Positions 12,746-62,269 of a DNA stretch of 64,000 nt are shown piece by piece. Both the position numbers and the translations under genes were made by a program. Every line of letters starts with the position of its first letter. The stretch's first letter is position 1. Under the pieces are notes generated by a model, which worked only from the letters and a program-made list of their open reading frames with translations, was not told the DNA's origin and made no database searches. The stretch comes from Mimachlamys varia (taxonomy: Eukaryota; Mollusca; Bivalvia; Pectinida; Pectinidae), in assembly GCA_947623455.1 (NCBI GenBank), contig OX392545.1:22989501-23053500 (forward strand), read 5' to 3'.

Positions 12746-15021
12746 ATAGACTGACAACTGTGATACACTTTATGTTTTACTCAGCATATATATATATATA
12801 TAACAGGGATTTAGATGGACAAGAATTTTGATGCATGTGCCTCAAACATCTTTCTTGTAACTTTCATTAATTGGGTCTGTAAGAAACATTCATACAATAA
12901 ACATCATATGCTACACTTCAAAATCTGTTTTCTTAATTTACGTGTAGTCATCAGTGTGCTGGGGTCCACCGCAGGTAGATTTGCCAATAAAAACTTAATT
13001 ATTGCAAATTTATATTCAGGAGTATAACCCAGTATTGAACCTGGTGAGCTAGATCTAAACATTTATTTAGGGTAAGTGAAAATATATTATTAATGTTAAA
13101 GAGTTTTGATAAAAAATATATGTAATAGGCCAGCCTTGTGTGATTCTCAATGATTTGTTTACTGGCTAGGACTTTCAAATGAAATTGCACATTCACCTTT
13201 TCACAAAAACAATGATTGTTCTTGGAGACAAACGTATTAACCTGAGAGAGATTTTGATATTTATGTATGCGTCTCAGGCGCAGATGCAGGATTTTTCGAA
13301 AGGTCAGGGGGTCCAGCTGACGTTTTTTCAATGATGCAATTGTAAAAACTTTCATTTGCAAGGCAATGAAAATTGTCGTCCTCCAAAAAATGTGGCCTAG
13401 ATCTGCTAACTGTGTGTCTCACAAAACTGTTGACAGTTACTATCATAACTTTGTCTTGGTGAGGAGCAGAACAATTTCTACTCAGATTTTGATCTTAGGC
13501 ATCCCCGAACTCTCTAAGAATTCTGATTAGAAGCACTAACAAAGGCAGTCACAGTTGTAGACAGTGATGTCGCTGGTGAACACATTTTTGTACCTCCCTC
13601 CTAACAAACCGTTACAAACACAAGATGTTCAGACATGCTAGCACACATGTCCTTTAGCATTATAAGGCTCCGAAATACAGTATTTGTAAGCTTGATAGGC
13701 CAAACTTGATAATGTCTGTTTAATGTACCAGGCTGTTGAGTTAGGTTTTAAAGTTACGATTGATATTTCATTGAGATTTCAATTTAGTTTTGATTCAAAA
13801 TTCTGAGAGGAAACTACCCATAAGCAGTAATAAAAAAGGCCTAGATATAGCTAGTGTACTGGAATTAGTTTTTAGAGTTGGCAGGTATAACACTTACAGA
13901 AAACAACCATACACATTGAGTTGGCCTAACTTACAGAATCTGTTTTTGTTATTGCTTTCCGAAGGATACATCAAAGGATTTTGTGTAAGCTCCTTGAGTA
14001 AGAGTAAAATGGAAGACGAAGCTAATTTGTCACTAGATGTTACAGGGTAATGCTTTACAGCGATGAAGATGCAAAAACCATCAGTGGAATAAAAAATTCA
14101 AACATCTGGTCCCAATCTTCTGGACAAAAAATGACATCACTTAGGGTCTGACTTATTAGTGAAGGAGTGTTGTAAATGTGAAGTGAAAGCCATGCAAACA
14201 AAATATTTGGTCAGGAGGAAAACCTGGACTGCATTCATGAGATCATAAATCTTAGTAATGGCCATTATGAGTTCATAAGAAAAAAATGTTTGTTGTTAAA
14301 TTGTAATTACTGCCAAGGTGACGTAATGATGTTTTAGAAAAATTGGCCAGTTAAATGTCATGCAGTACGTAATACACTATTATCTATGACATATTTTTCA
14401 AAAAATTAATATATAGTTTTCTTTTGATTTAATTGATATTGTGATCATGTCAAGATTGTAGAGTTTGTTAATCCATAATTAGTCATTGAAAAAATTTTCT
14501 CGAGGGACAAATGGCATATTCAACAAATTAACATACAAATGTATAATCATTGGTGTAATATTGAACACACATACATGTACCAAAATTTGAAAAAATTAAG
14601 ATCAAACATCAAAGGTCATATAATACATGCACATAATATGTAATCTAAAATATTTTGAAAATTCAATCTAAAATCTATCAAGTATTCAGATCTAACTTTT
14701 TAAAGAATTTAAAACATTTCATCTTTTTCTCAAATCTCCTAAAATTTTAACTGGCAGATAAAAAATTGAACAGCTTTTCTGAAATATGATAGACGTTTAC
14801 AGCATAAATGTTTTCGTACAGGAAATGGGTCTGTGGACAGGACTATCCACATACTGTGATAACAAAAACTCCCAACGTGTAAAAGGTTGGGCTATAATAT
14901 CATCATGTTAGATGCATACCACACGTGTAGTGTAGTGCAGTCAGTGATTCAAGCCGTATTTGTTGACAGATGGCAACAGTATGGAGCATAGTCTGATAGC
15001 CTGTACCCGCCAGGGGGCGTG

Positions 15022-15697
15022 CTCTAAAGTATGGCCTGGAATAGGTCATGTCATCTAAAGTATGGGCTTGAATAGGTCATGTCATCTAAAGTATGGGCTG
15101 GAATTAGGTCGTATCATCTAAATTATGGGCTGGAATTAGGTCGTATCATCTAAAGTATGGGATGGAATAGGTTGTGTCATCTAAAGTATGGGTTGGAATA
15201 GGTTGTGTCATCTAAAGTATGGGCTGGAATAGGTTGTGTCATCTAAAGTATGGGCTGGAATAGGTAATGTCATCTAAAGTATGGGCTGGAATAGGTTGTG
15301 TCATCTAAAGTATGGGCTGGAATAGGTCGTGTCATCTAAAGTATGGGCTGGAATAGGTCGTGTAATCTAAAGTACGGGCTGGAATAGGTCATGTCATCTA
15401 AAGTATAGGCTGGAATAGGTCGTGTCATCTAAAGTATGGGCTGGAATAGGTCATGTCATCTAAAGTATGAGCTGGAATAGGTTGTGTCATTTAAAGTATG
15501 GGCTGGAATAGGTCGTGTAATCTAAAGTATGGGCGGGAATAGGTCATGTCATCTAAAGTATGAGCTGGAATAGGTCGTGTCATCTAAAGTATGAGCTGGA
15601 ATAGGTCGTGGCATCTAAAGTATGAGCTGGAATAGGTCATGTCATCTAAAGTACGGGCTGGAATAGATCATGTCATCTAAAGTACGGGCTGGAATAG
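15022..15697. repeat. 31-bp minisatellite, about 22 units
   Basis: The unit is close to CTAAAGTATGGGCTGG followed by AATAGGTCGTGTCAT. Units differ by point changes, for instance GTCGTG against GTTGTG or GTCATG. The array has no flanking inverted repeats and no coding potential. Confidence 0.9.
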
Positions 15698-16059
15698 GCT
15701 GTAACATTTTATCTGAAGAGTTATTGCCAGACTTAAGAAAATTACTTGAAAAATATTCTTCACTGTGTTAAAAGATCCAATGAGATGATTAAATTTTGGT
15801 CAAGCCCAGTTCAGAATCTGCAACCAAGTAATGATAAATACCATTTAAACTAGGTCCATATAAACCTTATCTGATCCCTACGAAGACAGGACAAGACAAT
15901 TTGAGACCATAACCATGGTGATGGACCTTTTTTACCAATATGCCTTCTCCTTCAAAGCCTCTAGACAGAGGTAACTAAAAAGTGTTGAAGATGATTTGTG
16001 AAAAGCATGTGTAATGTACCCAGCATCACTCAGACACAAGTAAGCTGTAAACACTCCAC

Positions 16060-45764: not shown

Positions 45765-46248
45765 CATGAATGATTCTCAGTAAATTTATCAGAGATTTAC
45801 TAAAGCTACGCTCTTTTAAGGCTTTGCCTTTATCATATTAGAAACCATGACTAAATGTACCACTGATAGAAACCATGACTCAATGTGCCACTGATAGAAA
45901 CCATGACTCAGTGTACCACTGATAGAAACCATGACTCAATGTATCACTGATAGAAACCATGACTCAGTGTACCACTGATAGAAACCATGACTCAATGTAC
46001 CACTGATAGAAACCATGACTCTGTGTAACACTGACATAAAACATGACTCAATGTACCACTGATAGAAACCATGACTCAATGTACCACTGATAGAAACCAT
46101 GACTTCGTGTACCATTGATAGAAACCATGACTCAATGTACCACTGATAGAAACCATGACTTCGTGTACCAGTACATGAATGATTCTCAGTAAATATCAGA
46201 GGTTTACTAAGGCTACGCTCTTTTAAGGCTTTGCCTCTGTCATATTAA
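45765..46248. repeat. 28-bp minisatellite enclosed by ~75-bp direct repeats
   Basis: The array at 45841-46170 has about twelve units of GAAACCATGACTCAATGTAC plus CACTGATA. Both sides carry the same ~75-bp sequence, starting CATGAATGATTCTCAGTAAA and ending near GGCTTTGCCT...CATATTA (45765-45838 and 46174-46248). Confidence 0.85.
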
Positions 46249-48701: not shown

Positions 48702-48870
48702 ATTTACGAGGGAAAAAATTGGTATATTCTGAAATAACATCACATGAAAATTTATACTGTATTATTATCAGAGTTGATATCTGTATTTTACGCTGTGACC
48801 TCTACCACTTATACAATCTCCCAACAGGTCGGCTAATCTCCCATCAGGTCGGCTGAGGTGCAAAAATAGG

Positions 48871-49900
48871 TAGTGGGCTTATTACCAGACATGCCCAAAT
48901 GCATAACGAGAGGTCAAAAGTGGAGGGTGGGCTTATTGCCAGACATCCCCCAATGCATAACGAGAGGTCAAAAGTGGAGGGTGGGCTTATTGCCAGACAT
49001 CCCCCAATGCATAACGAGAGGTCATAAGTGGAGGGTGGGCTTATTGCCAGACATCCCCCAATGCATAACGAGAGGTCATAAGTGGAGGGTGGGCTTATTG
49101 CCAGACATCCCCCAATGCATAAAGAGAGGTCATAAGTGGAGGGTGCCTTATTACCAGACATCCCCCAATGCATAACGAGAGGTCATAAGTGGAGGGTGTG
49201 CTTATTATTAGACATCTCCCAATGCATAACGAGAGGTCATAAGTGGAGGGTGGGCTTATTATTAGACATCTCCCAATGCATAAAGAGAGGTCAAAAGTGG
49301 AGGGTGGGCTTATTATTAGACATCCCCCAATGCATAAAGAGAGGTCAAAAGTGGAGGGTGGGCTTATTAATAGACATCTCCCAATGCATAAAGAGAGGTC
49401 AAAAGTGGAGGATGGGCTTATTACCAGACATCCCCCAATGCATAAAGAGAGGTCAAAAGTGGAGGGTGGGCTTATTACCAGACATCTCCCAATGCATAAC
49501 GAGAGGTCATAAGTGGAGGGTGGGCTTATTATTAGACATCCCCCAATGCATAACGAGAGGTCAAAAGTGGAGGGTGGGCTTATTATTAGACATCCCCCAA
49601 TGCATAAAGAGAGGTCAAAAGTGGAGGGTGGGCTTATTATTAGACATCCCCCATTGCATAAAGAGAGGTCAAAAGTGGAGGGTGGGCTTATTACCAGACA
49701 TCTCCCAATGCATAACGAGAGGTCATAAGTGGAGGGTGGGCTTATTACCAGACATCCCCCAATGCATAACGAGAGGTCATAAGTGGAGGGTGGGCTTATT
49801 ATTAGACATCTCCCAATGCATAAAGAGAGGTCAAAAGTGGAGGGTGGGCTTATTATTAGACATCCCCCAATGCATAAAGAGAGGTCAAAAGTAGAGGGTG
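48871..49900. repeat. 54-bp minisatellite, about 19 units
   Basis: The unit reads approximately GTGGAGGGTGGGCTTATTAC, CAGACATCCCCCAATGCATA, AAGAGAGGTCAAAA. Because 54 is a multiple of three, several frames stay open on both strands over hundreds of bases. One unit near 49139 is a base shorter and shifts the frames. Unit variants (ACCAG/ATTAG, AAAG/AACG, CAAAA/CATAA) are interspersed, showing unit homogenisation. Confidence 0.95.
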
Positions 49901-50952
49901 GGCTTACTACAGGAGAAATACAATAACCAAATGAGCTACCTTAATTATTAGCTCAGCGATTACCAGAAATTGACCCAGTGTTACATCCTACAAGAACAAC
50001 AAAGAAAATTGTCAATCAGTAATTCATCTGAGCTATATATCTATCACTTGTTTCCTGTCCCTTATTGATTTTAAACAGACTTGATATTTTGTCATATTCC
50101 ATATGTTAAAGGTTTAAACATAAACAAAGTCGGGACTCGTGGGATTGAATTCGTTCCATTAACACAGAAAAAAGGGACTACTGTATGTTTTATTAATTCC
50201 CTTCACAGAAGTTTGTAAGGATAGTTCCATGTGTTTTGTTTCTGTAGGGAGATTGGGTCTACGACACTCTAGAGAATAAGCATACTCCTACAAACATAAT
50301 CACAGGCTAGGAGCTCCTACCTGTTACATGTATTGACCTTAGAATACTACTGTACCAGTAAGGCCAGTTTAGCAAGTCAACTCATCAATTGTTGATTCCT
50401 ATTTACAGTCATCCTTGTTATCTAAAAGGTGATATGGAATCTTTAGAAAGCTTTGAGATATCCCAAGTATTTGAGGTACCCTCACAATGAAGATAGGTGT
50501 TGGGGGGAGGGGGGGGGGGGAGGGGGTGTATACTGGAATCAGGTTGTCAGTTTGTATGTCTGTCTGTCTGTATACACAATGATGTATCAGCTACTCCTCT
50601 TAAAGTACTGAGGGAATATCAACGAAACTTGGTGGCAATAATCCTTATACATTGTAGATTTATGTAATCTATTACACGTTAAAGATATTTAGTTGCCATG
50701 GTAACCAGGTCAGTATATACCTGTTTTTCTGCAGTAATTTTGGTTGCCATGGTAACCAGTTAAAAAAAACCCAAAATTCTATGATTGTATATGTTGGCCA
50801 TTGGCTTACAGTTCTACTATTTAAACAGGAGATTTCACCTCATGTTCCTTGACTTTGACAATAGTATACTGGTATGTTAGATATGGAAGCATGAAACTTT
50901 TTGTTGAACATTAGAGTAATGCATCAGACATATACAGCAAATACTGGACATT

Positions 50953-53719: not shown

Positions 53720-53725
53720 CTTGTC
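53720..53725. repeat. Target-site duplication CTTGTC, left
   Basis: This 6-mer immediately precedes the element terminus AGTAGTAC and is identical to the 6-mer after the right terminus. Six bases is the duplication length of Polinton/Maverick integrases. Confidence 0.9.
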
Positions 53726-54143
53726 AGTAGTACAAAAGTGAGGATACGAGCGCAGGGTCACCCGGTGCATTCCCTATATAATCCTTACCACCTCCCTGGC
53801 ACCTCCCTAGTGGCACCCCCCTTGACAGGGGGGTACCGATGACGTCACAAATGGAGCACCTCCCTAGTGGCACCCCCCTTGACAGGGGGGTACCGATGAC
53901 GTCACAAATGGAGGGTTATCCAGTGCATAAAAATGACCCTCAGGGGGGTACCGATGATGTAACGGGGGTTATGCCCCCTCCCGTCAATGGGGTTGCTGAT
54001 GACGTAATTATGGCCACGCCTCCTTCCCATCATGAGGGGTACCGATGATGTCATGACGTGTTTGGATTTTCCAATCTATTTCGACCGATTGCATCGCAGT
54101 CAAACTTCTACAACATTATATAAAATAACAAAGCACTTCTTAT
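53726..54143. promoter_or_regulatory. Left terminal block with repeated GGTACCGATGACGTCA motifs
   Basis: About 418 bp outside the coding units contain a 57-bp tandem repeat and five versions of GGGGTACCGATGACGTCA. Two are perfect CRE/ATF palindromes (TGACGTCA at 53840-53847 and 53897-53904). Related degenerate copies follow near 53947, 53990 and 54040. The block could work as an enhancer, an integrase or replication-protein site, or both; function is inferred. Confidence 0.6.
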
Positions 54144-54367
54144 GTACAATATTTTATTTTCCCCGTCGCGATTGAATGAATGTAGGTCGGAGAGCCATCC
54201 TACATCCATCCTTACAAAGAATACCTAATCTATCATGGACAAATGAATATTTACAACTACACGAGAGCCATCTATCACCCATCCTGTAGTACTTGAGCGA
54301 TCTGTGAACGTCCTTTCCCATATTACGGGGTCCTGACATTGGACCTTTCTAGGATAGTTCACTCTCC
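54144..54367 (-). other. Structured post-gene module B, left copy
   Basis: This is the mirror image of 61622-61845. It starts at the INT stop and ends past an AATAAA signal. See the right copy for structure. In this arm it is transcribed leftward. Confidence 0.6.
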
Positions 54368-55521
54368 TACAAATCGGTTATATCGGACGCATTGATCCAG
54401 GAGTTAAATTTCTTCGACCAGTGAAGCCATTTCACATAGTATTGTTTGTTTCGACCCTTTCCTCTGGTTTTCAGAGTGGTCTCCACTTTCCACATATCAT
54501 CGTCCCTGACATCTATTTTCTGTAGCTCGGACTGGTAGAATGTTCCTTTGATCTCGTCTCCATCATAGTCTTTGACTCTATACACTGCTAAGCCTCCGCG
54601 AAGTATCTTTCGAGAAATGGTGAATATCTCCCCCGTCCATTTTTGGTCATATTCTCGGGAGAAAAGGTTTCTCAAATGGGACAGCCTTACTTTATCTCCA
54701 ACTTTAAACTTAAAAGGTTTACGAACCTTCTTCGTTTTCGGTAAGACTGGTTGTTTTCTCGGCCAATACATTCTCCACCAGATAGACGTCTCATTATCTT
54801 TAGACACATTCACTGGGGACATACCAATCGTCCGGTGATATGTTTGATTATAGCTGTCAGCAAACGTTTGTAATTGCTTAACGTATTCATAGTTTCTTCT
54901 GTGTGTGAAATACCTGTACAATCTGGATTTTATGGTCTTGATGACACGCTCAGATACTGCTGCTTTGGATTCGTTTTGCGCATAGAGATGTTGTATGTCG
55001 TATCTATTCAGGAGTGCATTCACCTCTTTCGATCTAAATTCCTGACCTTTATCGGTACGTATCCGACCAGGCTGTCTCCCTTTGGATAAAATGTCTTGTA
55101 GTGCTTTCACAACAGATACACCTTTCTTGTCTTTGAGGGCTCTCATCCACAGATACTTTGAGAACACGTCAATGACAACAAGTATATAAGCATAACCATC
55201 GTTTTCACTCTTGAACTTGACCATGTCCATGAGATCAGCCGACCATTGGTCGTCGATACCCGTCACAATGATTTTGTTTCGCTTGAATGGACGTCGGATG
55301 GATCTCTGAAGGCTGTACGGCTCTTGACGTTGCAACCATTTTCTTATTTTATATTTGCTGATGACGTATTTTCCCTCTTTTCGTACATATCTAAACAATT
55401 TGTCGGGTCCGGAGAAACTCCCCGCCTTTGCAGGGTTATAATAAATATCTCTTAAATAATCCTCCCAGGAAGGCATCTTTCCTCGTCGAGTGCTAGACGT
55501 TGAAATGAAACTTTTAGACAT
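54367..55521 (-). CDS. Polinton-type integrase with chromodomain, left arm
   Basis: This 384-aa enzyme would insert the element's ends into chromosomal DNA, with 6-bp staggered joining in this family. The catalytic acidic triad is visible as D96 (WSADLMDM), D157 (IRTDKGQEF) and E191 (AVSERVIKT), with 33 residues between the last two. The preceding N-terminal stretch (KLFRYV...KIRKWLQ) resembles the zinc- or DNA-binding leader of these integrases. An SH3-like segment (~270-340, KVGDKVRLSHL) and a C-terminal chromodomain (~345-384, YYVKWLHW...NSWINASDI) follow. A TATA-like box only 7 bp upstream suggests initiation at Met16 (MPSWEDYL), where conserved sequence starts, or a bicistronic message with the ATPase 17 bp upstream. 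It differs from the right copy by one residue, Ser for Pro in the chromodomain (base 54417). All key residues are intact, so it is potentially active. Confidence 0.9.
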   Translation of the reverse strand: MSKSFISTSSTRRGKMPSWEDYLRDIYYNPAKAGSFSGPDKLFRYVRKEGKYVISKYKIRKWLQRQEPYSLQRSIRRPFKRNKIIVTGIDDQWSADLMDMVKFKSENDGYAYILVVIDVFSKYLWMRALKDKKGVSVVKALQDILSKGRQPGRIRTDKGQEFRSKEVNALLNRYDIQHLYAQNESKAAVSERVIKTIKSRLYRYFTHRRNYEYVKQLQTFADSYNQTYHRTIGMSPVNVSKDNETSIWWRMYWPRKQPVLPKTKKVRKPFKFKVGDKVRLSHLRNLFSREYDQKWTGEIFTISRKILRGGLAVYRVKDYDGDEIKGTFYQSELQKIDVRDDDMWKVETTLKTRGKGRNKQYYVKWLHWSKKFNSWINASDITDL

Positions 55522-55527
55522 GATACA

Positions 55528-55538
55528 CTATATTTATA
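55528..55538 (-). promoter_or_regulatory. TATA-like box before left integrase
   Basis: Read on the minus strand it is TATAAATATAG, directly after the ATPase stop codon. It is 7 bp from the annotated INT ATG, so a start about 25-30 bp downstream would favour Met16. Confidence 0.4.
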
Positions 55539-56174
55539 TCAGTTTTCATCTATATCGGAGTCATCATCTGATTTATCAACTTCGGAGTCGTCGTCTGATC
55601 CATCATCTTCGGAGTCATCGTCCCACAACTCTTCTAAAACATGACGATTCTTTTTAAGTGCCATCTTGATCGCTTTACTATCTCCATAACCATCTTCTAT
55701 GAAGTCTGTTACATCATCCATAATCTTTTTGTGAATCTTGCCATTTCTTAGCTGAAGAACGTACTGGATAATGGCTTTATAATTTTGGTAAAATTGCTTC
55801 ATATCTTCAGATTCCATTTTCTCGTTCGCTTTCGTCTGTGCTTCGTCATCAGACATGCCCTCGTTTACGTATTTCTCATACTTTTTATTCCATTTAACCT
55901 CGTTCGAAGACTCTGCTTCATTCATCAAGGATTTGAAAACCTCATTTTCTTCACTTTCATCACTTTCCTCGTCAGACTTGTATGAGATCCACCTTTTTTG
56001 TTCTGGTTCCTCTTCGTCTATTGATTCTCGTTTCCTTTTACGGGAATCGTTTTCTGGACACCAGGTTTTCAAGTGTCTCTGTAAATCGTGTATGTCTTGG
56101 AACATGATACCACAATCATCACAGGCGGACATCTCTTCTTGTAGTAGATGTGTTTCGTCTACAGTTTGCTGTTG

Positions 56175-56205
<31 letters not shown>

Positions 56206-56891
56206 TTGGAATACGTCTGCTCGGTTGGAGTATCAGCCTCAAAATGAGCATTAGCTTGATCTTTCTGTCCTTTTATAGGCTGTACAGAAAATATGTCACT
56301 GCGCATGCGTAACGATTCTGGAGTGGATGGCTTCAAATCGACGAGAAGATATCCGTACGGTTTACTGGTAGCCTGTTTGAAATGCGTCATCAGATGTTGT
56401 ACATTTTCGGGATACATCTGTCTTGCAAGAGTCATGACCTGCTGTTTATCGATAGGATTGTTGAACAATACCAAATAGTGGCAATTCCTCCTCTGTGTTG
56501 GATCTTTGTTGTAGTAAAGGTTTTGATTGATGGCTATGACTGATAAATTTCTGTGGTGGCTCCCTTCCGTAAATAATTCGTTTATGCGAGGGTCCTTACT
56601 CGCTGACGACATGAGATCATCCAATATTACCAAGTTTTTAACACTGGGATTTATGAAAGAATCTTGATCTAAATCCATAGGAATCCCTTTGATGAATTCT
56701 ACTGAAGGGTAGACTGTTGCTTTGATGACGTCATAAAGTGGTTGCCACCGTTTGTACAGCCATAAAATACGCTGTGGTGGTGGTGATACTTTTACCATAC
56801 AATTTTGAAGCAGTGTTTTGACAAAATAAGTCTTTCCACACGAGGTCGGTCCCGAAACAGTTGCAGTAAATGGATGTTTAAATACCAACTC

Positions 56892-56925
<34 letters not shown>

Positions 56926-56976
56926 GTACGTGTATTGTGTGCTAGCTGTACAAAACCATCTTTATTGGAAAGTCCG

Positions 56977-57024
<48 letters not shown>

Positions 57025-57075
57025 GTAAATGTATGGTGTGCTAACTGTACAAAACCATCTTTATTGGAAAGTCCG

Positions 57076-57132
<57 letters not shown>

Positions 57133-57183
57133 GTACGTGTATGGTGTGCTAGCTGTACAAAACCATCTTTATTGGAAAGTCCG

Positions 57184-57231
<48 letters not shown>

Positions 57232-57410
57232 GTAAATGTATGGTGTGCTAACTGTACAAAACCATCTTTATTGGATAGTTCGTGCTGCTGCTGCTGCTGC
57301 TGATTGGTATTAACAAATCCCTCTCCGTCCGAATGCTTATGTCTTAGGTGACGTTTTAAATCATGTGGCCAGATATATTCACTAAAGCAAATACGGCACT
57401 GGTGCTTCAT
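55539..57410 (-). CDS. Zinc-finger/poly-Gln packaging-type ATPase (A32/FtsK-HerA type), left arm
   Basis: The 623-aa protein begins with a C2H2 finger (C5, C8, H21, H26). Five Gln tracts of 6, 15, 18, 15 and 11 residues follow, spaced by repeats of HGLSNKDGFVQLAH. The ATPase core has Walker A GPTSCGKT (~187-194), Walker B NLVILDDLM (~259-267), and the GSHHRNLSV and AINQNLYY segments typical of Polinton and giant-virus genome-packaging ATPases. A sixth Gln tract, a C2HC finger (~430-451) and a very acidic C-terminus (~480-623) complete it. In the family the ATPase pumps DNA into capsids. No capsid gene is present here, so helper capsids or another role must be inferred. This copy keeps the residues KGIP before the MDLDQD segment, which the right copy lacks. 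The fused fingers and Gln tracts are unusual additions. Confidence 0.88.
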
Positions 57411-57467
57411 GTTGATGTGTTCTCGTCGGTGTCCAGGTATGAAATGACAAAGTTTTAGATTTCAGGT

Positions 57468-57476
57468 CTATTTATA
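57468..57476 (-). promoter_or_regulatory. TATA box of left ATPase gene
   Basis: On the minus strand TATAAATAG lies about 60 bp upstream of the ATPase ATG, a spacing that fits a core promoter with a short leader. The right arm has the mirror copy. Confidence 0.65.
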
Positions 57477-57527
57477 CTCTATGTTGCCATGCATTATTGG
57501 TAAAAATAAATCGACCATTTGTAACAT

Positions 57528-57754
57528 TCAATATTTTATCGTCTCTGTCAATGAGACAGAACACAAGTCAGAGACCCATCTCGTGCCCGTCTGTACATAC
57601 AAATCCCTACTCTATAATGGACAATGATATATTTACGCTACTGAGAGCCGTCTACCACCCGATCCATGGTACTTGGATGATCTGTGTCGATTGTACACCT
57701 GTTCCCATGCAACGGGGTCCTGAAATAAGACCTTTCTAGGATAGTTCGCTCTCC
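57528..57754 (-). other. Structured post-gene module A, left copy
   Basis: Mirror image of 58259-58485, starting inside the last codons of the polB fragment and ending at GATAAAATATTG. See the right copy. Confidence 0.6.
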
Positions 57755-58014
57755 TTACTTTGTAGCCTCCAGTGGCCGTATGCATAGCTAGTGATCCCGT
57801 CGTCTAGCAGATATCGTTTGTCGTCAAAAGGTGACAGACCTATTTTAGTCATCGATATGTTATAGAGTTGGTGCTTGAAACTTCTGATTTGATTCATTTG
57901 AGACAAAATAATTCTGTTTTGAAGAAGACATTCCTTGTATTGCTCGAAACGAGTGTGGTTTTCGATAACATACTTTTTGATACCTTTCGCCTTCTTCGAT
58001 TCAACGTGTGTCAT
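57736..58014 (-). pseudogene. C-terminal fragment of Polinton-type DNA polymerase B, left arm
   Basis: The 92-codon frame contains KKAKGIKKYV, then NQIRSFKHQLYNISM and DDKRYLLDDGI...AYGHW. I recognise these as the C-terminal tail found in protein-primed family B polymerases of Polinton-like elements. All catalytic exonuclease and polymerase motifs are missing because the gene is cut at the palindrome centre. The apparent start codon lies in the 12-bp spacer and is probably accidental. Confidence 0.65.
58001..58012. other. 12-bp spacer at the palindrome centre
   Basis: The spacer TCAACGTGTGTC is flanked by CTTCTTCGAT and ATCGAAGAAG, where the two arms begin. Read leftward it continues the polB frame (THVE before SKKAKG), so it is probably native polB sequence kept as the loop of an ancestral snap-back. 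Confidence 0.8.
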
Positions 58015-58277
58015 CGAAGAAGGCGAAAGGTATCAAAAAGTATGTTATCGAAAACCACACTCGTTTCGAGCAATACAAGGAATGTCTTCTTCAAAACAGA
58101 ATTATTTTGTCTCAAATGAATCAAATCAGAAGTTTCAAGCACCAACTCTATAACATATCGATGACTAAAATAGGTCTGTCACCTTTTGACGACAAACGAT
58201 ATCTGCTAGACGACGGGATCACTAGCTATGCATACGGCCACTGGAGGCTACAAAGTAAGGAGAGCGAACTATCCTAG
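58008..58277 (+). pseudogene. C-terminal fragment of Polinton-type DNA polymerase B, right arm
   Basis: Identical in sequence to the left fragment beyond the first residues and 89 codons long. It overlaps the left frame by seven bases through the spacer. Its stop codon lies within module A. It lacks all catalytic motifs. Confidence 0.65.
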
Positions 58278-58485
58278 AAAGGTCTTATTTCAGGACCCCG
58301 TTGCATGGGAACAGGTGTACAATCGACACAGATCATCCAAGTACCATGGATCGGGTGGTAGACGGCTCTCAGTAGCGTAAATATATCATTGTCCATTATA
58401 GAGTAGGGATTTGTATGTACAGACGGGCACGAGATGGGTCTCTGACTTGTGTTCTGTCTCATTGACAGAGACGATAAAATATTGA
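58259..58485 (+). other. Structured post-gene module A, right copy
   Basis: This module aligns with module B at 61622 over most of its length, e.g. GAACTATCCTAGAAAGGTC and TCAGGACCCCGT. Predicted stems are GAGAGC (58260) with GCTCTC (58365), CTATC (58269) with GGTAG (58357), and GGTCT (58281) with GGACC (58293). In B the same positions change but still pair. A terminal hairpin (GTCTCTG / CAGAGAC, near 58439-58472) precedes GATAAAATATTG. The reading frame is not conserved between A and B, so it appears to act as RNA or DNA and not as protein. Confidence 0.6.
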
Positions 58486-58536
58486 ATGTTACAAATGGTC
58501 GATTTATTTTTACCAATAATGCATGGCAACATAGAG

Positions 58537-58545
58537 TATAAATAG
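58537..58545 (+). promoter_or_regulatory. TATA box of right ATPase gene
   Basis: TATAAATAG lies about 60 bp before the ATG at 58603 and mirrors 57468-57476. Confidence 0.65.
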
Positions 58546-58602
58546 ACCTGAAATCTAAAACTTTGTCATTTCATACCTGGACACCGACGAGAACACATCA
58601 AC

Positions 58603-58880
58603 ATGAAGCACCAGTGCCGTATTTGCTTTAGTGAATATATCTGGCCACATGATTTAAAACGTCACCTAAGACATAAGCATTCGGACGGAGAGGGATTTGT
58701 TAATACCAATCAGCAGCAGCAGCAGCAGCACGAACTATCCAATAAAGATGGTTTTGTACAGTTAGCACACCATACATTTACCCAGCAGCAGCAGCAGCTG
58801 CTGCTGCTGCAGCAGCAGCAGCAGCAGCACGGACTTTCCAATAAAGATGGTTTTGTACAGCTAGCACACCATACACGTAC

Positions 58881-58925
<45 letters not shown>

Positions 58926-58976
58926 CGGACTTTCCAATAAAGATGGTTTTGTACAGTTAGCACACCATACATTTAC

Positions 58977-59024
<48 letters not shown>

Positions 59025-59075
59025 CGGACTTTCCAATAAAGATGGTTTTGTACAGCTAGCACACAATACACGTAC

Positions 59076-59109
<34 letters not shown>

Positions 59110-59783
59110 GAGTTGGTATTTAAACATCCATTTACTGCAACTGTTTCGGGACCGACCTCGTGTGGAAAGACTTATTTTGTCAAAACACTGCTTCAAAATT
59201 GTATGGTAAAAGTATCACCACCACCACAGCGTATTTTATGGCTGTACAAACGGTGGCAACCACTTTATGACGTCATCAAAGCAACAGTCTACCCTTCAGT
59301 AGAATTCATCATGGATTTAGATCAAGATTCTTTCATAAATCCCAGTGTTAAAAACTTGGTAATATTGGATGATCTCATGTCGTCAGCGAGTAAGGACCCT
59401 CGCATAAACGAATTATTTACGGAAGGGAGCCACCACAGAAATTTATCAGTCATAGCCATCAATCAAAACCTTTACTACAACAAAGATCCAACACAGAGGA
59501 GGAATTGCCACTATTTGGTATTGTTCAACAATCCTATCGATAAACAGCAGGTCATGACTCTTGCAAGACAGATGTATCCCGAAAATGTACAACATCTGAT
59601 GACGCATTTCAAACAGGCTACCAGTAAACCGTACGGATATCTTCTCGTCGATTTGAAGCCATCCACTCCAGAATCGTTACGCATGCGCAGTGACATATTT
59701 TCTGTACAGCCTATAAAAGGACAGAAAGATCAAGCTAATGCTCATTTTGAGGCTGATACTCCAACCGAGCAGACGTATTCCAA

Positions 59784-59814
<31 letters not shown>

Positions 59815-60450
59815 CAACAGCAAACTGTAGACGAAACACATCTACTACAAGAAGAGATGTCCGCCTGTGATGATTGTGGTATCATGTTCCAAGACATACA
59901 CGATTTACAGAGACACTTGAAAACCTGGTGTCCAGAAAACGATTCCCGTAAAAGGAAACGAGAATCAATAGACGAAGAGGAACCAGAACAAAAAAGGTGG
60001 ATCTCATACAAGTCTGACGAGGAAAGTGATGAAAGTGAAGAAAATGAGGTTTTCAAATCCTTGATGAATGAAGCAGAGTCTTCGAACGAGGTTAAATGGA
60101 ATAAAAAGTATGAGAAATACGTAAACGAGGGCATGTCTGATGACGAAGCACAGACGAAAGCGAACGAGAAAATGGAATCTGAAGATATGAAGCAATTTTA
60201 CCAAAATTATAAAGCCATTATCCAGTACGTTCTTCAGCTAAGAAATGGCAAGATTCACAAAAAGATTATGGATGATGTAACAGACTTCATAGAAGATGGT
60301 TATGGAGATAGTAAAGCGATCAAGATGGCACTTAAAAAGAATCGTCATGTTTTAGAAGAGTTGTGGGACGATGACTCCGAAGATGATGGATCAGACGACG
60401 ACTCCGAAGTTGATAAATCAGATGATGACTCCGATATAGATGAAAACTGA
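58603..60450 (+). CDS. Zinc-finger/poly-Gln packaging-type ATPase, right arm
   Basis: The 615-aa copy has the same domain order as the left copy: C2H2 finger, Gln tracts with HGLSNKDGFVQLAH spacers, Walker A GPTSCGKT (~183-190), Walker B NLVILDDLM (~251-259), C2HC finger (~422-443) and acidic tail. It differs in three ways. A 12-bp in-frame deletion at 59310/59311 removes KGIP. The third Gln tract is 14 instead of 18 residues. In the second tract four CAG codons are replaced by four CTG codons (58798-58809), giving LLLL, as if that piece had been flipped. The deleted KGIP lies in a segment conserved in this family, so this copy may be less active. The left copy lacks these defects. Confidence 0.88.
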
Positions 60451-60461
60451 TATAAATATAG
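60451..60461 (+). promoter_or_regulatory. TATA-like box before right integrase
   Basis: TATAAATATAG directly follows the ATPase TGA and lies 7 bp before the first INT ATG. It mirrors 55528-55538. Confidence 0.4.
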
Positions 60462-60467
60462 TGTATC

Positions 60468-61622
60468 ATGTCTAAAAGTTTCATTTCAACGTCTAGCACT
60501 CGACGAGGAAAGATGCCTTCCTGGGAGGATTATTTAAGAGATATTTATTATAACCCTGCAAAGGCGGGGAGTTTCTCCGGACCCGACAAATTGTTTAGAT
60601 ATGTACGAAAAGAGGGAAAATACGTCATCAGCAAATATAAAATAAGAAAATGGTTGCAACGTCAAGAGCCGTACAGCCTTCAGAGATCCATCCGACGTCC
60701 ATTCAAGCGAAACAAAATCATTGTGACGGGTATCGACGACCAATGGTCGGCTGATCTCATGGACATGGTCAAGTTCAAGAGTGAAAACGATGGTTATGCT
60801 TATATACTTGTTGTCATTGACGTGTTCTCAAAGTATCTGTGGATGAGAGCCCTCAAAGACAAGAAAGGTGTATCTGTTGTGAAAGCACTACAAGACATTT
60901 TATCCAAAGGGAGACAGCCTGGTCGGATACGTACCGATAAAGGTCAGGAATTTAGATCGAAAGAGGTGAATGCACTCCTGAATAGATACGACATACAACA
61001 TCTCTATGCGCAAAACGAATCCAAAGCAGCAGTATCTGAGCGTGTCATCAAGACCATAAAATCCAGATTGTACAGGTATTTCACACACAGAAGAAACTAT
61101 GAATACGTTAAGCAATTACAAACGTTTGCTGACAGCTATAATCAAACATATCACCGGACGATTGGTATGTCCCCAGTGAATGTGTCTAAAGATAATGAGA
61201 CGTCTATCTGGTGGAGAATGTATTGGCCGAGAAAACAACCAGTCTTACCGAAAACGAAGAAGGTTCGTAAACCTTTTAAGTTTAAAGTTGGAGATAAAGT
61301 AAGGCTGTCCCATTTGAGAAACCTTTTCTCCCGAGAATATGACCAAAAATGGACGGGGGAGATATTCACCATTTCTCGAAAGATACTTCGCGGAGGCTTA
61401 GCAGTGTATAGAGTCAAAGACTATGATGGAGACGAGATCAAAGGAACATTCTACCAGTCCGAGCTACAGAAAATAGATGTCAGGGACGATGATATGTGGA
61501 AAGTGGAGACCACTCTGAAAACCAGAGGAAAGGGTCGAAACAAACAATACTATGTGAAATGGCTTCACTGGCCGAAGAAATTTAACTCCTGGATCAATGC
61601 GTCCGATATAACCGATTTGTAG
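60468..61622 (+). CDS. Polinton-type integrase with chromodomain, right arm
   Basis: The 384-aa frame is identical to the left integrase except Pro for Ser in the chromodomain (base 61572). D96, D157 and E191 are present, as are the SH3-like and chromodomain segments. It follows the ATPase stop by 17 bp, and its own stop codon joins module B. With two complete integrases and intact ends, the element carries what is needed for its own insertion, although excision or replication would need a polymerase supplied in trans (inference from family biology). Confidence 0.9.
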   Translation: MSKSFISTSSTRRGKMPSWEDYLRDIYYNPAKAGSFSGPDKLFRYVRKEGKYVISKYKIRKWLQRQEPYSLQRSIRRPFKRNKIIVTGIDDQWSADLMDMVKFKSENDGYAYILVVIDVFSKYLWMRALKDKKGVSVVKALQDILSKGRQPGRIRTDKGQEFRSKEVNALLNRYDIQHLYAQNESKAAVSERVIKTIKSRLYRYFTHRRNYEYVKQLQTFADSYNQTYHRTIGMSPVNVSKDNETSIWWRMYWPRKQPVLPKTKKVRKPFKFKVGDKVRLSHLRNLFSREYDQKWTGEIFTISRKILRGGLAVYRVKDYDGDEIKGTFYQSELQKIDVRDDDMWKVETTLKTRGKGRNKQYYVKWLHWPKKFNSWINASDITDL

Positions 61623-61845
61623 GAGAGTGAACTATCCTAGAAAGGTCCAATGTCAGGACCCCGTAATATGGGAAAGGACGTTCACAGATCGCTCAAGTAC
61701 TACAGGATGGGTGATAGATGGCTCTCGTGTAGTTGTAAATATTCATTTGTCCATGATAGATTAGGTATTCTTTGTAAGGATGGATGTAGGATGGCTCTCC
61801 GACCTACATTCATTCAATCGCGACGGGGAAAATAAAATATTGTAC
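61622..61845 (+). other. Structured post-gene module B, right copy
   Basis: The module starts at the last base of the INT stop. Stems GAGAGT (61623) / GCTCTC (61721), CTATC (61632) / GATAG (61713) and GGTCC (61644) / GGACC (61656) match those of module A with changes that keep pairing, including U-G to C-G or U-A. A distal hairpin (ATGTAGG / CCTACAT, ~61785-61810) is followed by AATAAA at 61831-61836, a plausible 3' processing signal. The open frame at 61650-61835 is not preserved in module A. Confidence 0.6.
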
Positions 61846-62263
61846 ATAAGAAGTGCTTTGTTATTTTATATAATGTTGTAGAAGTTTGACTGCGATGCAA
61901 TCGGTCGAAATAGATTGGAAAATCCAAACACGTCATGACATCATCGGTACCCCTCATGATGGGAAGGAGGCGTGGCCATAATTACGTCATCAGCAACCCC
62001 ATTGACGGGAGGGGGCATAACCCCCGTTACATCATCGGTACCCCCCTGAGGGTCATTTTTATGCACTGGATAACCCTCCATTTGTGACGTCATCGGTACC
62101 CCCCTGTCAAGGGGGGTGCCACTAGGGAGGTGCTCCATTTGTGACGTCATCGGTACCCCCCTGTCAAGGGGGGTGCCACTAGGGAGGTGCCAGGGAGGTG
62201 GTAAGGATTATATAGGGAATGCACCGGGTGACCCTGCGCTCGTATCCTCACTTTTGTACTACT
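61846..62263. promoter_or_regulatory. Right terminal block with repeated GGTACC/TGACGTCA motifs
   Basis: Exact mirror of the left terminal block. Perfect CRE palindromes lie at 62085-62092 and 62142-62149. The last bases, CACTTTTGTACTACT, form the element terminus. Confidence 0.6.
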
Positions 62264-62269
62264 CTTGTC
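62264..62269. repeat. Target-site duplication CTTGTC, right
   Basis: Identical to 53720-53725 and immediately outside the CT-3' end of the element. Confidence 0.9.

Follow-up and report, generated by a model that had tools for sequence, protein, structure and literature searches.

According to the accessible text of PMC8097293, vertebrate Polintons (Mavericks) most commonly end in AGTAGT...ACTACT and are flanked by 6-bp target-site duplications (TSDs); intact vertebrate elements extend over 12.7–24.6 kb, with terminal inverted repeats (TIRs) of 46–1,447 bp and capsid genes, and Maverick viral particles have, by the same account, not been observed. Polymerase domains are treated in the accessible part of PMC11071308. 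The element described here lies in a 64,000-nucleotide stretch of the genome of the bivalve Mimachlamys varia, hereafter the window (C19:22989501–23053500 in the host assembly of 975,302,275 bases and 71 contigs). It shares with the Polintons of PMC8097293, as far as the accessible text describes them, the 6-bp TSD, (AGT)2//(ACT)2 ends, TIRs, an rve integrase and an ATPase, and full-length copies of its family also carry polB. Unlike vertebrate Mavericks, it is 8.5 kb long, fully palindromic and without a polymerase or capsid gene, and its parent, at about 9.9 kb, lacks a capsid-sized extra open reading frame (ORF). We consider it probable that the window element is an integrated snapback genome, resembling a defective interfering genome, of this resident ~9.9-kb Polinton.

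Defective genomes of adenoviruses are palindromic and stem from a protein-primed linear parent, and the kalilo plasmid reportedly gives rise to palindromic or hairpin deletion derivatives of its protein-primed linear genome. As in the window element, one end of a linear genome is inverted and duplicated in these derivatives, but they are extrachromosomal and lack flanking TSDs. The maize element Mu killer is an inverted-repeat transposon derivative able to yield hairpin RNA; it belongs to another transposon class, and its likeness to the window element lies in being an inverted-repeat derivative.

Snapback genomes of adeno-associated virus (AAV), termed defective interfering, occur in symmetric and asymmetric forms and, like the window element, are self-complementary and keep one end twice (PMC8235507, accessible part). 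AAV, however, is a parvovirus that relies on rolling-hairpin replication and packaging, whereas the window element is chromosomally integrated and bears an integrase TSD. Truncated Cafeteria virophage elements with regenerated TIRs provide a further parallel, as shortened relatives with TIRs again at both ends, but these are protist virophages, and no palindrome is described in the accessible part of PMC8547959. Among the papers listed in literature searches, judged by title and start of abstract and mostly without subscription papers, there was no palindromic Polinton, and no palindromic element is named in the accessible parts of PMC6431247, PMC12721341 and PMC10120064.

The palindromic element and its fold-back point

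The element occupies positions 53726–62263 of the window as a near-perfect inverted repeat of 8,538 bp with a 12-nt spacer. In the arm alignment, the left arm (53726–58000) runs from the terminus on the parent's integrase side to the fold-back point and the right arm (58013–62263) is its mirror copy. The ends read AGTAGT...ACTACT (terminal letters AGTAGTAC...GTACTACT), and the hexamer CTTGTC stands directly outside each of them, on the forward strand, at 53720–53725 and 62264–62269; when lengths of 2 to 11 were tested, a direct repeat was found at the borders only at length 6. The flanks are unmirrored, with 27.7% ungapped identity over 1,500 bp. The original prediction, made from the letters of the window, had already recognised the identical hexamers, the AG...CT termini, the two mirror arms with their 12-bp spacer and the unmirrored flanks, all of which we confirm. 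Two separate insertions are ruled out by the shared TSD and the unmirrored flanks, as is an ordinary chromosomal inverted duplication taking in the flank.

Evidence for the origin of the palindrome comes from its centre. All nine other copies of the family that were compared there read ...CTTCGAT TCAACGTGTGTC ATC ACTTC... and run on natively, whereas the window element reads ...CTTCGAT TCAACGTGTGTC ATC GAAG..., the sequence turning back after ATC. The left arm, the spacer and the ATC are therefore native, and beyond the ATC the strand copies itself backwards. The 12-nt loop (58001–58012, + strand) is asymmetric and, by comparison with the other copies, is native polB sequence in the orientation of the left arm; it is enclosed by GAT and ATC, a 3-nt micro-inverted repeat at the turn-back of the strand (57998–58015, + strand). 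Since all nine copies are native across GAT-12 nt-ATC, we conclude that the palindrome arose by fold-back on a 3-nt stem within polB. A tenth copy (C15:6585431, 92% identical) also matches the centre stretch and stands outside the nine-copy count. The element thus combines an inverted duplication of one end around a native fold-back loop with the loss of a replication gene while parent copies exist, two properties expected of snapback genomes.

The arms are 100% identical over 2,953 nt inward from both ends and over 913 nt around the spacer. Across the full alignment they differ by a single substitution (54417 A/61572 G), a 12-bp indel (56678–56689), a 12-bp difference in the lengths of CAG runs and four T/A positions within one CAG run. 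At arm position 692 the nine other copies and the right arm carry G, so the A of the left arm is derived, and the 12 bp lost from the right arm are present in all nine copies, so that gap is derived as well; with different derived changes in each, the arms are not one sequence printed twice. Over 1,822 sites outside the CAG runs (1,798 for the C12 copy), the left arm shows two differences to the C13 copy, three to the C19 copy and five to seven to the other seven. These low numbers point to a palindrome that is young or whose arms are kept alike by conversion, and copies this close (two to seven sites) are likely helper copies. At 58783–58829, in the right arm, part of a CAG run reads CTG, like an inverted piece, and could represent a small inversion such as a hairpin might produce.

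Each arm carries, read outward, a polB-like ORF tail of about 87 codons, an ORF with C2H2, polyQ and ATPase regions, and an integrase with a chromodomain. In the left arm, on the minus strand, these are the polB C-terminal remnant with its stop (57736–58000), the C2H2/polyQ/A32-type ATPase gene (55539–57407) and the integrase gene (54367–55521; a derived S for P); their counterparts in the right arm, on the plus strand, lie at 58013–58277, 58603–60450 (with a derived 12-bp deletion at ~59311) and 60468–61622. The two integrase ORFs are open, with 384 amino acids plus stop (386 codons from stop to stop), and match the Pfam families rve (8.3e-15) and Chromo (4.5e-6); the residues D96, D157 and E191 are present, with 33 residues separating the last two, and the PHROGs and NCBIfam scans of the integrase gave general transposase matches only. 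Both ATPase ORFs are also open and match Pox_A32 (1.5e-5 and 2.1e-5, of which 1.5e-5 is above the cut-off); the enzyme is of the A32/FtsK type, for which a packaging role is predicted.

The polB tail gave no match worth naming in Pfam, PHROG, NCBIfam or PDB, and its single-sequence fold was poor (mean pLDDT 77.5, pTM 0.44). Comparison with the other copies identifies it as the C-terminus of a long ORF, and the left remnant reads MTHVESKK, as does the native ORF. The element has no polymerase gene beyond these last ~87 codons, and its ORF list contains no major or minor capsid protein or protease. Two copies each of integrase, ATPase and truncated polB tail had been predicted, and this gene content stands.

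IMG/VR, queried with the integrase, the polB tail, the whole ATPase, its core and two degenerate patterns, yielded no relative, and neither did a collection of genome contigs. A phage search returned a sole weak match, at 22.6% identity, to a transposase of Paenibacillus phage PBL1c (two records). All these collections may omit the window's own genome.

The terminal 242 bp (53726–53967, + strand; 62022–62263, − strand) are common to both ends of full-length copies. Within them a subterminal unit of 57 bp is repeated twice in tandem, either copy containing TGACGTCA (53799–53913, + strand; mirrored at 62076–62190). A module of about 155 bp, 78% identical between its occurrences, is found at the stops of polB and integrase (58258–58411 and 61621–61769, mirrored in the left arm), where it is perhaps a shared 3' untranslated region. 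The palindrome and the CAG runs drew fifteen matches from Rfam, all of them dismissed as falling under the family gathering scores. Elsewhere in the window, host tandem arrays occupy 48770–50040, 15013–15818 and 45783–46226, with periods of 54, 31 and 28 bp.

The parent Polinton family

When the outermost 225 bp at the start of the element were searched against the assembly, 38 matches resulted; those of at least 98% identity, together with two short pieces at an inner junction on C14, define a close family of 11 loci. Eight of the 11 span 9.86–10.54 kb, and the usual member, of ~9.9 kb, encodes the integrase, the C2H2/ATPase protein and a probable PolB of 1,318 amino acids. Perfect 6-bp TSDs flank eight of the 11 loci, including the CTTGTC of the window. 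Among the others they are CAATGC at C19:21990180–22000059 (L034), TGCTAT at C9:38018968–38029114 (L031), GGTAGG at C3:63136706–63147222 (L032) and, for the two C15 loci (25119105–25128964 and 25631406–25641377), CCAGAC and TCTATT; the two larger loci on C14 and C17 are treated below. At C12:21026554–21036565, CAAAAA occurs on both sides with a short deletion beside one end, while no TSD was seen at C18:25223930–25233908, where the far end is altered, or at C13:22729124–22739663, where both ends are. An apparent empty-site paralogue of the C19:21990180–22000059 insertion is present at L035:3275. Seventeen stop-free integrase ORFs in the genome, each of 386 codons and with identity of 99% or more, belong to this family: two in the window, four at C14, three at C17 and one at each of eight other loci. 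The integrase census scored 107 of 1,159 candidates, and its counts of distant relatives are lower bounds.

The polymerase ORF of the C19:21990180–22000059 copy extends over 1,318 codons without a stop, as assembled from two pieces with an identical in-frame overlap. In its N-terminal part, C2H2 fingers score 2.6e-7, and Endonuclease_7 matches weakly, under the cut-off, at 1.4e-4; its C-terminal part gave no match in Pfam but carries DANNLYG and DTDS, which we take to be motifs A and C of family B polymerases. On the strength of these two motifs, the ORF is probably PolB. In the far-end piece of this copy, the only ORF of at least 120 codons beyond polB is one of 173 codons, antisense to polB, and from the pieces of a few copies the close family looks capsid-less. 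The original prediction had given 15–20 kb with capsid genes as the Polinton norm, which does not describe this family of ~9.9 kb. A related subfamily, with an integrase 80% identical, is represented at C2:37193300–37203200 (L022) by a copy with 415-bp TIRs, the TSD GTTAGA and a single integrase and single polB on opposite strands.

Palindromes and rearranged ends at other loci

Palindromes occur at two of the 11 close-family loci, the window and C14, and at one locus of a distant family on C1. C14:1378796–1391822 (13,027 bp, L020/L021) holds, between CTCGGC duplications, a double palindrome of 13.0 kb in which all four integrase ORFs are intact. Its order is terminus, arm, CAG/CTG centre, arm, inner junction, arm, centre, arm and terminus, in the manner of a mirror tandem. 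The inner junction falls ~200 bp short of a terminus, with the fold-back at TTAT-CCAGTGC-ATAA (7-nt loop), a sequence that is native in all 16 family end pieces scanned. The four arms show no differences over 2,749 sites; compared with the arms in the window, they mismatch at 8–9 of about 2,740 sites. Because of these mismatches, and because it folds back elsewhere than the window element, at a CAG/CTG tract and at TTAT-7 nt-ATAA, C14 has a separate origin. A single rule fits both loci, namely that each fold-back costs the element one end and gives it the other twice.

The third palindrome, at C1:47203135–47220727 (L051–L054), is asymmetric and belongs to a Polinton family whose integrase is 38% identical to that of the window. 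Its inverted arms of 7,242 bp are 100% identical and flanked by the TSD CGCTTT. The centre, of ~3.1 kb, has a TIR fragment of 115 bp at its start and a native continuation of 269 bp at its end, which shows that template switches more complex than a single snapback also occur. Two related loci, C3:27211080 and C18:28911773, have one integrase each. Judged from the assembly, palindrome formation recurs in the host genome, though the window junction was found at a single locus.

Other loci carry rearrangements of different kinds. C17:38159363–38173343 (13,981 bp; L025, L003, L033 and L026; TSD ACCATA) is a composite in which a near-complete copy is followed by two further integrase ends, both truncated and oriented alike, with one terminus abutting arm position 2015 of the next unit, a join that resembles self-integration. 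In the C9 and C3 copies the integrase ends bear far-type TIR letters in all 14 diagnostic columns beside intact TSDs, so the two ends exchange sequence. The far end of the C13 copy (C13:22729124–22729915, L039) consists of TIR fragments stacked in alternating orientation, with a break near arm position 188. On C18, a different integrase (C18:21595311) lies 5.3 kb from that at C18:21600582, in opposite orientation, and degraded integrase pieces oppose each other at C12:40567035/40574443; these pairs, within 5–7 kb and unequal or degraded, are possibly older inverted elements or merely neighbours.

Origin of the palindrome and its meaning

The snapback genome that we favour would have formed as follows. 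Strand-displacement synthesis on a linear copy, outside the chromosome, would start at the integrase end and proceed inward. Within polB the growing 3' end would loosen, fold through the 12-nt loop and prime on GAT/ATC, the junction observed in the window, and synthesis would return to the strand's own 5' end, leaving a hairpin. Replication from the sole remaining terminus could then open the hairpin, and the product would be a linear palindrome bearing an integrase-side terminus at either end. The one-sided gene content of the element, like the junctions and TSDs, is seen directly. The integrase would insert this palindrome with the usual 6-bp duplication, as the TSD and termini record. Lacking a polymerase, the palindrome would depend on a family member as helper to replicate again. 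The double palindrome at C14 would follow from two rounds of the same rule. The original prediction that the element was integrated as a palindrome is most likely correct, given its proper termini, TSD and unmirrored flanks, but the TSD alone is no proof.

Several points weigh against this reading. The outer ~242 bp are alike at both ends, the first fixed difference between the two end types appearing at position 243 when TIR variants are compared for an origin before or after integration, and post-integration repair would leave ends and TSD just like these. At a given junction, chance alone produces a 3-nt match with probability 1/64. Pfam scans of the polB ORF turned up no polymerase domain, and at C1 the centre is more than a simple native loop, a long stretch of it being unmatched in the sister pieces compared. 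The extrachromosomal form, moreover, is a prediction from the assembled genome.

It is rather unlikely, yet deserves weight as the main rival reading, that the mirror was formed after integration. A break in a full-length copy would be followed by fold-back synthesis copying the integrase arm as far as the TIR, and the new end would anneal to the other TIR, as the ~242 bp common to both ends of full-length copies would allow; the original TSD and flanks would be kept, and the same termini are expected. Such repair, however, would have to succeed by luck independently at three loci, and at C14 two times over, whereas the replicative model covers three loci in two families with one rule. We also prefer the replicative model because the rearranged ends at C9, C3 and C17 sit beside intact TSDs, which fits trouble before integration without proving it.

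An assembly artefact, with the mirror produced by wrongly joined copies or by a read that was chimeric or formed a hairpin, is improbable. Palindromes are difficult to assemble and the evidence here is an assembly, not reads; but a mirrored read would also mirror the flank, whereas the arms stop exactly at the element ends beside the TSD and bear different derived changes, and the artefact would have to recur at C14 and C1, again ending in TSDs. Least probable of all is the lasting satellite lineage raised by the original prediction, a multi-copy palindrome that would use its own integrase to move and a helper's polymerase to multiply: open integrase and ATPase ORFs and close helper-type copies would suit it, but the full junction was found at one locus in the 975-Mb assembly and C14, with other fold-back points and 8–9 mismatches, is of separate origin.

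Polinton replication has so far been inferred from genes. Native-loop fold-back junctions within integrase TSDs are the trace expected of linear strand-displacement replication followed by integration, and through such junctions the Polinton cycle becomes testable in a living animal. As a tentative proposal, which we hold to be possible rather than likely, animal Polintons that replicate extrachromosomally by protein priming may regularly give rise to palindromic snapback genomes. Such genomes would keep the integrase end, enter the germline as defective forms dependent on a helper and perhaps damp their family. If so, damping could act through competition for the polymerase or through hairpin RNA feeding small-RNA silencing. 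The fold-back junctions themselves would connect Polintons with what is known of defective genomes in adenoviruses, linear plasmids and AAV, and they may be the legible record of a replication step that is otherwise hidden.

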